Source: Sphingomonadaceae bacterium
Lineage (GTDB): Bacteria; Pseudomonadota; Alphaproteobacteria; Sphingomonadales; Sphingomonadaceae
Direction: 5' to 3'
Length of the DNA: 64,000 nt
Assembly: GCA_021732525.1 (NCBI GenBank)
Contig: JAKFUU010000012.1
Coordinates: forward strand, 186,001 to 250,000
Positions 42,305 through 46,291 of this stretch are shown piece after piece. How positions within the stretch are numbered: the first letter of the stretch is position 1; each line of letters begins with the position of its first letter. The position numbers and the translations under genes are program-made. The notes beneath the pieces were generated by a model, which was not told the origin of the DNA, ran no database searches, and worked only from the letters and a program-made list of their open reading frames with translations.

Positions 42305-43282
42305 TCAAGCAATCATTGCGGCGAAAATATCCCAATCCACATTGCCGCCCGATAGCGTTACCACCGCCGTTCCTTGCGGCTCAATCTTGCCGGTAAGAAC
42401 CGCCGCGAGCGCCGCCGCCCCGCCGGGTTCAACGACGAGGTGGAGACGTTCAAACACCAACCGCATCGCCGCGCTGATTTCGGCTGGCGTCACGGCCGCG
42501 CTGCTATGCACGCGGCCCTTCAATATATCAAAATTGATCGGGAAGGTGCAGGGCGTTTGTAGCGCGTCGCAGGGCGTGGGGTAGTTTTGATCCGCCACGG
42601 GTTGTATCATTCCTGCATCCAGCGAGCGGATCACATCGTCCCAGCCTTCGGGTTCGGCAATCGAAATAAGCGCATCGGGGCAAGCCAGCGATAATCCCGC
42701 CGAAAGCCCGCCGCCCCCGCAGCAGGCGATGATATGGAGCGGGCCTTCAATCCCCCGTGCCTTGACTTGCGCCTCTGCTTCCAATCCTAAAGTCCCCTGC
42801 CCCTCAATCACCCAAGGGTCGCCAAAAGCATGGACGAGCGTAGCGCCCGTGCGTGCGGTCAGCTCCGCGGCAATCGCATCGCGGTCTTCGCCGGGGCGCT
42901 GATAGAGAATAATATCTGCGCCTAACGCCTGGGTGGCCGCTATTTTCGCTTTGGGAGCATTATGCGGCATCACAATGGTCGCCGCCACCCCGAGCCGCCG
43001 CGCGGCCCAGGCCACGCCCTGCGCATGGTTTCCGCTGGAAACGCCGACAACGCCGCGTGCGCGCTCTTTATCGGTTAAATCCGAAAGCCGGTGCCAAGCG
43101 CCGCGGATTTTGAACGCCCCGATGGGTTGCAGCATCTCGGCCTTGCACCACAATATCCGGCCATCCACCTCCAACGGCAACAGCGGCGTAGGCGGTAATA
43201 TTGCGGTGATTTTCGCGGCCGCCCTTGCTATACCCGCCGCGCAGGGTTTTCGGCTTGGATCAAGCAAATCTTGTGCTGTCAT
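42305..43282 (-). CDS. Threonine/serine dehydratase (fold-type II PLP enzyme)
   Basis: 325 residues. The PLP lysine is in PIGAFKIRGAWH near residue 57; the phosphate loop is CCGGGGLSAGL and SSGNHAQGVAWAARRLG is typical. There is no ACT regulatory domain, so it is the short catabolic or serine racemase-like type rather than the allosteric biosynthetic IlvA. It is divergent from the polyamine locus and convergent with hemA. Confidence 0.9.
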   Translation of the reverse strand: MTAQDLLDPSRKPCAAGIARAAAKITAILPPTPLLPLEVDGRILWCKAEMLQPIGAFKIRGAWHRLSDLTDKERARGVVGVSSGNHAQGVAWAARRLGVAATIVMPHNAPKAKIAATQALGADIILYQRPGEDRDAIAAELTARTGATLVHAFGDPWVIEGQGTLGLEAEAQVKARGIEGPLHIIACCGGGGLSAGLSLACPDALISIAEPEGWDDVIRSLDAGMIQPVADQNYPTPCDALQTPCTFPINFDILKGRVHSSAAVTPAEISAAMRLVFERLHLVVEPGGAAALAAVLTGKIEPQGTAVVTLSGGNVDWDIFAAMIA

Positions 43283-43336
43283 AAAGGCAGTCTATATCCG
43301 AATTTCGATGATTCTCCAGCAGTAAGGACAAAGTGG

Positions 43337-44545
43337 ATGAGCAAAATTTTGGTGATTGGCGCGGGCGGGGTCGGGTCAGTTGCGGTGCATAAAATGGCTT
43401 TCAATTCGGATATTTTTGGCCGCATTAGTTTGGCCAGCCGCACCAAATCGAAATGCGATGCGATTGCTGCATCGGTAATGACGCGCTGCGGTGTTGATAT
43501 TGATACATATGCGCTGGATGCCGATGATGTACCCGCCGCCACCGCGCTGCTCAATCAGATCAAGCCTGCCTTGGTCGTCAATCTCGCGCTGCCTTATCAA
43601 GACCTCAACATCATGGAGGCGTGTCTGGCGGCGGGCGTGCATTATATGGACACCGCAAATTACGAACCGCTCGATGTCGCCAAATTTGAATATCACTGGC
43701 AATGGGCCTACCAAGATCGCTTCAGGGAAGCCGGGCTGACGGCGTTGCTCGGTTCCGGTTTTGACCCCGGCGTTACATCCGTGTTCACCACATATCTGAA
43801 AAAGCATCATTTTGACCAGATCGATACGCTCGATATCCTCGATTGCAACGGCGGCGACCATGGCCAGGCCTTTGCCACCAATTTCAACCCGGAAATTAAT
43901 ATCCGCGAAGTGACCGCGGTGGTACGCCACTGGGAAAATGGCGACTGGGTGGAAACCCCGCCCATGTCGGTGAAACAAAGCTTTGATTTTGAGGCGGTTG
44001 GCACAAAAAACATGTATCTGATGTATCATGAGGAAATCGAAAGCCTGAAAACCCATCTGCCCGAAATCAAGCGCATCCGGTTCTGGATGACCTTTGGCGA
44101 TGAATATATCAAGCATCTGACCGTGCTGCAGAATGTCGGCATGACGCGGATTGATCCCGTGATCTATGAAGGCAAAGAGATCATCCCGCTGCAATTTTTG
44201 AAGGCCGTCCTGCCCGAACCCGCCTCGCTGGGGCCGACAACCAAAGGCAAGACCAACATCGGCTGCATCGCCACCGGTTTGGGCAAGGACGGCACCGAAA
44301 AGACGCTCTATATCTACAATATCTGCGACCATGAAGACGCCTATGCCGAAACCGGCAATCAGGCGGTCAGCTATACCACCGGCGTGCCCGCGATGATTGG
44401 CGCAGCGATGTTGCTCACGGGCAAATGGGCGGGTGCCGGCGTTTGGAATATCGAGCAGTTTGATCCCGATCCCTTCATGGAGATGCTGAACCAGCACGGC
44501 CTGCCCTGGCAGGTGAAGGAACTGGACGGGGCGTTGAAATTTTGA
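43337..44545 (+). CDS. Carboxynorspermidine/carboxyspermidine dehydrogenase
   Basis: Saccharopine-dehydrogenase-fold enzyme that reductively condenses aspartate semialdehyde with putrescine or diaminopropane to give a carboxylated triamine. 402 residues from MSKILVIGAGGVGSVAVHKM, which is the NAD(P) loop. Downstream motifs VNLALPYQDLNIMEACLAAG, DTANYEP and LGSGFDPGVTSVF fit the CANSDH/LYS1-like family. Its function is supported by the decarboxylase that follows after a 482-bp inserted unit. The original frame opens earlier (43271) but has no better start. Confidence 0.88.
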   Translation: MSKILVIGAGGVGSVAVHKMAFNSDIFGRISLASRTKSKCDAIAASVMTRCGVDIDTYALDADDVPAATALLNQIKPALVVNLALPYQDLNIMEACLAAGVHYMDTANYEPLDVAKFEYHWQWAYQDRFREAGLTALLGSGFDPGVTSVFTTYLKKHHFDQIDTLDILDCNGGDHGQAFATNFNPEINIREVTAVVRHWENGDWVETPPMSVKQSFDFEAVGTKNMYLMYHEEIESLKTHLPEIKRIRFWMTFGDEYIKHLTVLQNVGMTRIDPVIYEGKEIIPLQFLKAVLPEPASLGPTTKGKTNIGCIATGLGKDGTEKTLYIYNICDHEDAYAETGNQAVSYTTGVPAMIGAAMLLTGKWAGAGVWNIEQFDPDPFMEMLNQHGLPWQVKELDGALKF

Positions 44546-44550
44546 GGTTT

Positions 44551-45032
44551 TTTGTTTCGCGCAAAGACGCAGAGTTTCGCAGAGACCACAGAGGGGATGT
44601 TGGTGAAGATTGATGAAATTAGCGCAATAGTCGTCGACGAAGCCATCGCCATCCACCGCGCGCTTGGACCGGGATTATTTGAAATCGTATATGAATCAAT
44701 TTTAGCCGGGCGGCTCGAAAACAGAGGCTTGAAAGTTTTACGACAGGTGCCCGTTCCTTTGGTGTTTGATGGCCAATCTTTCGGCACCGCATTCAGGATA
44801 GATATACTCGTTGAAGATAGGCTTGTCCTTGAAATTAAAGCGGTCGAACAACTAAGCAAAGCACATGCCAAGCAGTTACTTACTTATTTGAGGATATTGA
44901 AGCAGCCCGTTGGGCTGCTTCTGAATTTTTCGGGTGCGACGATGAAGGAGGGCATTAGGAGGATGGTCAATGACTATAAACCAGAATAATCTCTGCGACC
45001 TTTGCTCCCTCTGCGTCGCTGCGCGAAACAAA
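44551..45032 (+). mobile_element. 482-bp GxxExxY unit with terminal inverted repeats
   Basis: The left end (44551-44574, TTTGTTTCGCGCAAAGACGC then AGAG) and the right end (45009-45032) are inverted repeats matching at 22 of 24 positions. Inside them more CGCAGAG-like motifs occur in roughly 10-base steps, pointing inwards from both ends. One ORF fills the middle. The unit starts five bases after the upstream stop codon and ends four bases before the AGGAGGG ribosome site of the next gene, so both neighbours remain intact. There is no transposase; how it moves is unknown. Confidence 0.75.
44597..44989 (+). CDS. GxxExxY family protein (PD-(D/E)XK-like core)
   Basis: 130 residues, or 128 from a GTG at 44603 that is better spaced from GAGGGG. 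The family motif is GPGLFEIVYE near residue 23 (G-L-F-E-I-V-Y). A nuclease-like core follows: FRIDILVEDRLVLEIKAVE, with D...ExK spaced as in PD-(D/E)XK enzymes, then a helix AKQLLTYLRILK and a strand VGLLLNF. Catalysis is not shown. It is the only gene of the inverted-repeat unit and has no link to polyamine metabolism. Confidence 0.85.
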   Translation: MLVKIDEISAIVVDEAIAIHRALGPGLFEIVYESILAGRLENRGLKVLRQVPVPLVFDGQSFGTAFRIDILVEDRLVLEIKAVEQLSKAHAKQLLTYLRILKQPVGLLLNFSGATMKEGIRRMVNDYKPE

Positions 45033-45046
45033 TTTTAGGAGGGTAT

Positions 45047-46291
45047 ATGGAAACCAAAGCAGGCGATCCTGGCGCATTTGCCCGATTTGATTTGAACCGT
45101 GTGCCGTCGCCTGCCTTTGTCGTGGATGAGGCGGCGGTGCGGCGCAATTTGGTGATCCTGGCCGATGTCAAAGCGCGGTCGGGTGCGCGAATATTGCTGG
45201 CGCTGAAGGCTTTTTCAATGTGGTCCATGGCCGATATTGTCGGTGAATATCTCGACGGTGTATGCACCAGCGGGCTGTGGGAGGCACGGTTGGCGCGGGA
45301 GCATTATAAGGGTGAAATCGCCACCTATTGCGCGGGTTACAAAGCCGCGGACATGGCCGAAATCGTTGCCATTTCCGATCATGTCATTTTCAACAGCCCG
45401 AACCAGCACCGCCGTTTTTCATCCCACCTGAACGACACCGTCGATGTCGGTCTGCGCATCAATCCCGAATATGCCACGGGAGAGGTCGCCAAATATGACC
45501 CCTGCTCACCTCAGTCTCGATTAGGCTTTCCGGTCAGTCAGTTGCGGGCGGCGCATTTGGAGGGCATTTCCGGCCTGCATTTTCACACATTATGCGAACA
45601 GGATTTTGCGCCGCTACAGGCCACTTGGGCTGCGCTGAAACCGCATATCGCGCCGTATTTCGGTCAGCTCAAATGGATAAACTTCGGCGGCGGCCACCAT
45701 ATCACCCGCGCCGATTATCAGCGCGAGGAGCTGATCGCTTTCATCCGCGACATTCGCGCCGAAACCGGTCTTGCCATCTATCTGGAACCCGGTGAGGCGG
45801 TTGCGCTCGACGCGGGTATTCTTGTCGGTGAAATTCTCGACGTGTTTGACAACGGCATGGCGGTCGGAATTACCGACATCAGCGCCACCTGCCATATGCC
45901 CGACGTGATCGAAGCTCCCTATCGCCCTGCGATGCTAGGCGAGCTTCCCCCCTCCCCTTTAGGGGAGGGGACGGGGGTGGGGGCTGTCAAAACAGCGCTG
46001 GGTGACTTGGACAAGCCCCACCCCAACCCCTCCCCTAAAGGGGAGGGGCTTATCCGCCTGGGCGGTCCATCTTGCCTCGCCGGCGATATTATCGGCGATT
46101 ATGGCTTTCCTCAGCCTGCACAGCCCGGTCAGCGCTTTGCCTTTCTTGATCAGGCGCATTATTCCATGGTAAAAACCACCAGCTTCAACGGCGTGCCGCT
46201 CCCGTCCATCTGGCTGTGGAACAGCGACACTGACGAATTGCGCTGCGTCCGGGAATTTGGCTGGGAAGAGTTTCGGGATCGGTTGAGTTAA
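45047..46291 (+). CDS. nspC: Carboxynorspermidine decarboxylase with in-frame repeat insertion
   Basis: Fold-type III PLP decarboxylase converting carboxy(nor)spermidine to (nor)spermidine. 414 residues from an ATG with a strong AGGAGGG. PLP lysine in LLALKAFSMW near residue 50; FGGGHHITR, LEPGEAVALDAG, LGGPSCLAGDIIGDYGF and LDQAHYSMVKTT are intact. Between residues about 301 and 335, in a loop before LGGPSCLAGD, a Pro/Gly-rich segment (PPSPLGEGTGVG ... HPNPSPKGEG) is encoded by a palindromic DNA repeat. The reading frame is maintained and catalytic motifs survive. Confidence 0.92.
   Translation: METKAGDPGAFARFDLNRVPSPAFVVDEAAVRRNLVILADVKARSGARILLALKAFSMWSMADIVGEYLDGVCTSGLWEARLAREHYKGEIATYCAGYKAADMAEIVAISDHVIFNSPNQHRRFSSHLNDTVDVGLRINPEYATGEVAKYDPCSPQSRLGFPVSQLRAAHLEGISGLHFHTLCEQDFAPLQATWAALKPHIAPYFGQLKWINFGGGHHITRADYQREELIAFIRDIRAETGLAIYLEPGEAVALDAGILVGEILDVFDNGMAVGITDISATCHMPDVIEAPYRPAMLGELPPSPLGEGTGVGAVKTALGDLDKPHPNPSPKGEGLIRLGGPSCLAGDIIGDYGFPQPAQPGQRFAFLDQAHYSMVKTTSFNGVPLPSIWLWNSDTDELRCVREFGWEEFRDRLS
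45949..46048. repeat. GC-rich palindromic repeat (family C), inside nspC
   Basis: Two inverted arms, 45949-45982 and 46016-46048, each containing the self-complementary core CCCCTCCCCTTTAGGGGAGG. The arms are near-perfect complements around a 33-bp centre. The whole unit is translated in frame. A second copy of the arm lies at 63580-63610 near the epimerase gene. Confidence 0.85.

Follow-up and report, generated by a model that had tools for sequence, protein, structure and literature searches.

How does a gene for a small nuclease come to lie, between mirrored ends, in the gap that separates two polyamine genes, and does it have any means of getting there by itself? The question arises at one locus of a 64,000-nucleotide stretch of Sphingomonadaceae DNA, which we refer to as the window and which belongs to a genome of 3.0 Mb in 68 contigs (G000). 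The initial annotation of this locus described a compact unit and suggested that it is mobile or selfish, with a nuclease-like protein that may act on its own ends.

The unit extends from position 44551 to position 45032 of the window. It is bounded by terminal inverted repeats (left, 44551-44574; right, 45009-45032; no strand assigned), which on inverted-repeat comparison pair at 22 of 24 positions, just as had been annotated. The 24-nt arms are thus 92% complementary, with 2 mismatches, and their score of 38 was matched by 0 of 5000 dinucleotide shuffles, which reached at most 30 in a test that used two spacers only, of 51 and 57 nt. By sequence reading, both ends also carry arrays of short words. 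On the left, CGCAAAG, CGCAGAG, CGCAGAG and CACAGAG follow one another on the forward strand in steps of 8, 10 and 9 nt (44560-44593; word starts at 44560, 44568, 44578 and 44587), and the right array is their mirror image on the reverse strand (44991-45023; word starts at 44991, 45000, 45009 and 45017). The extra CGCAGAG-like motifs that the annotation placed inside both ends are therefore there, but the step of about 10 bases that it gave them does not hold: spacing within both ends is 8-10 nt here, and a set of 120 loci shows a period of 8 nt, sometimes of 9, instead of 10 (30 of 150 loci were left out of this set, as they did not reach an arm score of 34 or had short flanks). The unit is filled by a single forward-strand gene of 130 aa (44597-44989), and a scan of this ORF matched PF13366 only. 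No transposase was found in the unit, in agreement with the annotation, and a Y1 search found no Y1 transposase in its genome either.

The encoded protein is a clear member of the GxxExxY family (TIGR04256; PDDEXK_3, PF13366). Profile searches against PF13366 and TIGR04256 gave E values of 2.5e-37 and 6.5e-37, and the scores lie well over the curated cut-offs (126.4 bits against 35 for TIGR04256 and 128.3 against 22 for PF13366). The GxxExxY motif and the D...ExK core that had been read from the translation are both present with the active-site residues intact, and G26xxE29xxY32, D69 and E79xK81 are invariant across 56 aligned GxxExxY sequences. A likeness to Cas4 and RecB-like nucleases comes from a weak profile match (Cas4b, E 2.2e-4 over residues 66-103) and from Q93xxxY97, which follows the ExK and resembles a RecB/Cas4 motif; a search of PHROGs gave one weak CRISPR-associated match. 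However, the matched Cas4 profiles span 158-168 positions, against 130 residues in this protein, and there are no CRISPR genes in the unit. A sequence search of solved structures gave no convincing relative (best E 0.53). On these sequence grounds the window protein is predicted to be a Cas4-like PD-(D/E)XK nuclease.

The neighbouring genes both read forward. Upstream lies a carboxynorspermidine synthase-like member of the saccharopine dehydrogenase family (43271-44545; ORF as listed, assigned by profiles), which scores 428 bits, under the equivalog cut-off of 800, and downstream an nspC-like carboxynorspermidine decarboxylase (45047-46291; 399 bits, cut-off 409). The upstream stop codon ends at 44545, and the AGGAGG ribosome site of the decarboxylase, found on the forward strand by sequence reading, is at 45037-45042, just beyond the unit and ahead of the ATG at 45047; the unit thus lies between stop codon and ribosome site, as annotated. 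Among 30 loci of the genus at this junction, 3 contain the unit, 17 have genes that overlap by one nucleotide with no insert, 8 carry unrelated palindromic repeats and 2 have short spacers, so the empty sites that the annotation proposed to look for in relatives do exist. Another unit lies between the same neighbours at L041. The annotation had set against its own reading an operon gene present at the same place in all relatives, with ends found nowhere else. Neither holds, with 3 of 30 loci filled and ends at most of the GxxExxY genes tested. The unrelated repeats belong to two families (L069, L072, L074, L075, L076, L079, L080 and L083, at the junction corresponding to 44546-45046), and their presence in 8 of 30 loci indicates that this junction takes insertions repeatedly. 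Apart from the junction, the nspC-like ORF itself contains a palindromic repeat of ~106 nt in frame (45943-46051; peptide PSPLGEGTGVG...PHPNPSPKGEG), which has copies at other G000 sites and in G019, G022, G023 and G026 and at which the nspC matches of G019 and G006 break.

Are such ends peculiar to this locus? We scored the 250 nt upstream of each gene against the reverse complement of the 250 nt downstream, with mismatched loci as the null. For the 41 intact loci of the genus (two broken copies, L102 and L103, were left out), the median score is 48 for own pairs and 19 for mismatched pairs, and 36 reach the mismatched 95% mark of 37; L037, L041, L095, L096 and L099 fall short. Other genera and phyla gave a similar result, with a median of 44 against 19 over 101 loci (8 of 109 were dropped for short flanks), 72 of which reach the 95% mark and 41 the 99% mark, both marks being inflated by words that unrelated loci have in common. 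As a control we took the longest other ORF at these loci (n = 79), which gave 19 against 18, with a score of at least 38 in 1 case. The search for matching ends at other GxxExxY genes, suggested at annotation, thus had a positive outcome.

Typical ends read CTCACGC-RRAG-RCGC-RRAG-RCGC-RRAG, with variation, and consist of mirrored words of ~8 nt, often CGCRRAG. They occur in loci titled Verrucomicrobia, Planctomycetota, Desulfobacteraceae, Flavobacterium, Dolichospermum and others. Binning errors in MAGs are possible, for instance at L114. The family itself was found in 19 of 45 genus genomes and in 35 of 249 genomes of a phylum sample; one search kept the best 80 of 574 confirmed matches and the phylum sample supplied loci for its best matches, so divergent members are under-sampled. 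What the window contains is a real, discrete unit that is widespread across bacterial phyla.

The end sequences differ from lineage to lineage in step with the protein: the more alike the proteins of two elements, the more alike are their arms (Mantel r 0.53, 0/300 permutations). The arms in this test were picked by their own left-right match, which favours similarity within an element, and a comparison in fixed windows repeats the analysis without that choice: in 292 of 391 pairs of same-site orthologues, the two ends within an element are more alike than corresponding ends between elements, and this holds on average at 6 of 8 sites, with S4 and S8 reversed. G000 alone encodes four GxxExxY genes, all with inverted ends and with three visibly different word types among them.

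Ends also occur with no gene between them. A triple-word pattern, which detects CGC-type words only, gave 127 matches in the 45 genus genomes, against 5 for the reversed pattern, with at most 30 matches per genome; about 11 of the 127 come from one conserved stretch that is perhaps coding. By eye, we counted ~25 convergent pairs without a full gene between them, in 12 genomes, against 4 gene-bearing pairs, and four of the 12 genomes (G020, G021, G034 and G040) have no GxxExxY match. Where an enclosed gene could be assigned among the listed pairs, again by eye and for CGC-type words in the 45 genomes, it was a GxxExxY gene only. The gene-less units are ~55-150 nt long, with one of 243. Three of them lie in G000 within one stretch that includes nuo genes, and unit E of this genome separates nuoC from nuoD, two genes that share 4 nt in 24 of 30 loci and have unrelated repeats between them in 5 others. 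Of the five gene-less G000 units examined, 4 fit end types of GxxExxY lineages that the same genome encodes: D and L022 fit the window-type (nspC-site) ends best, and E and F the SDR-site ends. The fifth, L019, has no clear end-type match.

Gene-less units can also stand in series. Five of them lie in tandem, 175 nt apart, at G026:C24:4472-5245, and at L040 (1440-2750) a GxxExxY unit precedes a shortened version of itself, with an internal deletion and both ends, which is present in three direct copies 246 nt apart. At the three gene-less units near the nuo genes (L110 1590-1630, 7850-7890 and 10895-10940), a similar CCCGCC-type stretch, recognised by eye, lies between the unit and the neighbouring start codon.

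Comparison of occupied and empty sites shows how closely the units are fitted to their surroundings. At the SDR junction of L002, 5 of 34 loci contain a unit, and in the 29 empty loci the two genes keep one and the same spacing; Pfam identifies the downstream gene as an SDR, presumably fabG by name, and the upstream gene we take to be fabD, the upstream tail of L131 having no Pfam match. A family sample of 99 genomes, every one of which matched the query in some part, yielded 30 loci, with the unit in 6, at most 54 nt between the genes in 15 and longer spacers in 9. In a table of 25 occupied loci, two rows of which (L115 and L330) are the same junction, 23 rows have the left end 0-12 nt past the upstream stop, and 24 have the right end 16-31 nt ahead of the ATG. 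Where the two genes overlap in relatives, filled sites retain the stop and the start alike, so a short duplication or a later repair is needed. A fixed target-site duplication, suspected from single loci, could not be established. Over the 120 loci, own flanks agree better than those of mismatched loci (p 0.0006-0.003) and show no excess over a shifted control of the same loci (p 0.07-0.5), and within the SDR site p is 0.19.

Of the genus units found at single sites, we followed L093 into relatives, leaving out L037, L059, L094 and L098, and junctions L104 to L109 were likewise left out of the analysis. The L093 junction lies between convergent ORFs, and the 20 genus loci compared there take many forms. 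G006 has a full unit, G026 a full unit in the opposite orientation and G017 a broken unit that is also in the opposite orientation, and G014 and G029 have gene-less units with both ends; among the other loci, seven short forms resemble remnants, another seven sites are empty (17-20 nt) and one holds a different repeat. Comparison of G006 with G026 shows an inverted unit within collinear flanks. No target-site duplication was seen between the empty and filled forms of this site.

On a tree of 85 proteins from 16 shared sites, built on few columns and rooted at the midpoint, 16 site changes suffice, against a minimum of 15 and a shuffled mean of 56. One old jump between sites can be made out from the position of the nspC-site clade among the SDR-site lineages, and two Verrucomicrobial units fall inside the sphingomonad clade in this tree sample. 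Where a site is shared, the DNA of the units has diverged roughly as far as that of the flanks, or further, with few exceptions, the clearest being L056/L060 (unit 98%, flanks 90-94%); no gene-bearing unit was therefore caught in a recent jump. For the window site, homing between genera in recent times was rejected on the same ground, since units there diverge as much as their flanks or more. For 7 of 15 pairs dS is finite and dN/dS is 0.03-0.22; dS is saturated in the other 8, which include every window-site genus pair given, so this range excludes the window lineage. Mapped onto a nuoD tree (30 genomes), the SDR-site label requires 3-4 changes, a clustering not beyond chance (129 of 500 shuffles were as low), and gain and loss of units cannot be told apart well. 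Carriage by phages or plasmids was rejected too: tblastn with the window protein (E 1e-5), which could miss distant members, matched 0 of 50,697 phage records and 8 of 72,556 plasmids. A motif scan of viral contigs gave 1 match.

Lineages therefore sit at fixed junctions across genera, patchily, and free jumping is not seen, so the idea of a freely moving element is not supported. Gene-less copies, inversion and empty sites argue for mobility, and together with the discreteness of the unit and its functional-looking ends they bear out part of the initial reading as a mobile or selfish unit. Mobility of the unit over long times is well supported.

GxxExxY genes are not alone in having such ends. 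We retrieved 30 loci of PF05635 (23S IVP, a four-helix bundle), 22 of which entered the test and 20 of which had enough flank; 12 of the 20 lie above the mismatched 95% mark (median 37.5 against 18), and the ends above the mark are inverted arrays of 7-8-nt words. Examples of PF05635 genes outside rRNA between inverted 7-8-nt word arrays are L280, L281, L287, L295, L296, L297 and L309, with many perfect word copies at L281 and L287. No rRNA was found beside any of 20 PF05635 and 20 GxxExxY loci scanned (by Rfam for the GxxExxY loci; the scan of the PF05635 loci left out L309). Since these genes have partly the same end architecture, the GxxExxY protein type is not the sole route to such ends; the claim that the nuclease must be the mover is weakened, and the end architecture becomes the more general finding.

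The best overall explanation, which we consider somewhat probable, is a bacteria-wide class of minimal selfish units in which a gene for a Cas4-like PD-(D/E)XK nuclease lies between mirrored arrays of ~8-nt words and the nuclease acts on these ends. We infer this action from the sequences. The nuclease, probably as several copies along the words, would recognise its own lineage's words at both ends and would nick or cut at the arrays, and the bracketed DNA, with or without the gene, could then be copied or moved into new junctions at a low rate, gene-less units being served in trans. A unit would survive mainly where both neighbours are spared, either in the gap from a stop codon to the following ribosome site or between convergent genes, and there it would be inherited for long periods and often lost. 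A stronger form of this proposal, which we offer tentatively and with some doubt, is a bacteria-wide transposable class in which a lone Cas4-like PD-(D/E)XK nuclease, without a DDE, HUH or recombinase partner, recognises and moves mirrored 8-nt word arrays, gene-less copies included, and in which the IVP units are a parallel class with a different protein.

It is also conceivable, if unlikely, that the word-array ends are non-autonomous repeats moved in trans by another enzyme, and that the GxxExxY gene is a passenger between two of them. Gene-less units outnumber gene-bearing ones (~25 pairs, five in one tandem array, against 4, by eye) and occur in genomes without a GxxExxY match, PF05635 genes can lie between analogous arrays, and movement of REPINs by a trans-encoded enzyme was proposed in 2011 (PMC3116915). 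A passenger would not be expected to have same-type ends in many phyla, tracking its own sequence, nor to be the only gene tied to triple-word pairs (45 genomes, CGC-type words). A Y1 transposase was rejected as the mover, since 41 of the 45 genomes, among them G000, have no match to Y1_Tnp.

Homing elements are usually recognised by sites that stay the same across genera, occupied in some genomes and cleanly empty in others, and by purifying selection, and we see all of these. The protein could accordingly be a free-standing homing endonuclease that cuts the empty junction, with the unit copied in by repair and the arrays doing something else, such as autoregulation; yet this leaves unexplained why arrays are conserved at both ends and why gene-less units are scattered over unrelated junctions, and among same-site pairs only in L056/L060 is the unit clearly, if slightly, more alike than its flanks (98% against 90-94%), which makes this quite improbable. 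We give very little credence to an ordinary operon gene whose flanking palindromes form RNA hairpins for processing, stability or attenuation. Its neighbours do both run in the direction of the gene in 79 of 135 loci and both opposite to it in 6 (15 more loci had too little flank), and selection is purifying where measurable; however, the gene is absent from most relatives, lies between convergent genes in 33 of the 135 loci and is found in both orientations at one site. Differences between the arms show no preference for G-U pairs (of the transitions, 102 are compatible with such pairs and 135 are not), so RNA pairing does not keep the arms alike and was rejected as the origin of their match.

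In the openly licensed literature we found no description of flanking arrays of GxxExxY genes, passing mentions only of GxxExxY (PF13366/TIGR04256), no mention of PDDEXK_3 and no occurrence of the literal end strings. That the unit recurs, and does so in gene-less, flipped and empty forms as well, suggests a kind of selfish DNA that has been little studied, and the common GxxExxY family gains a concrete candidate substrate in its conserved, lineage-specific ends. Some short dispersed palindromes may have a cognate nuclease, and should the nuclease prove to move the units alone, an enzyme type would be added to those that move DNA. How rRNA intervening sequences spread is a long-standing question, on which the matching architecture of the IVP loci may shed light.

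Several known systems resemble the unit in part. The Coxiella 23S intervening sequence (PMC4990558) is a 428-nt element that has terminal inverted repeats, a single small ORF and heptamers in tandem close to one end and that has been proposed as selfish or mobile, all of which recalls the GxxExxY units; its S23p/IVP fold differs, however, and such sequences sit in rRNA and are cut from the RNA by RNase III. We rejected this assignment, as the window ORF matches PF13366 only, its neighbours are protein genes and no rRNA was found in 20 GxxExxY loci. A DDE-type insertion sequence or its MITE is not indicated either, since the nuclease ORF fills the unit and no transposase was found in it.

The RAYT-REPIN system offers a closer parallel, and RAYTs, too, are mostly chromosomal. 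RAYT genes encode nucleases, are present in low copy number and differ from one another, and repeats or inverted repeats can lie on either side of them; REPINs are dispersed doublets of two inverted repeats, ~71 bp apart, for which movement in trans is proposed (PMC3116915 and PMC3733652). The likeness extends to gene-less inverted-repeat units (here ~55-150 nt) and to long persistence, and in G000 the gene-less units D, E, F and L022 have ends of the types found at its own GxxExxY genes. In contrast, RAYTs are Y1 tyrosine (HUH) enzymes whereas these units code for PDDEXK_3, REPs are single hairpins whereas the GxxExxY ends are tandem arrays of ~8-nt words, and copy numbers are lower here, at no more than 30 triple-word matches per genome. 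Lacking the defining Y1 enzyme, the GxxExxY unit is not a member of the RAYT-REPIN system, but by analogy its way of working would be closest to that system, with a different nuclease at its centre.
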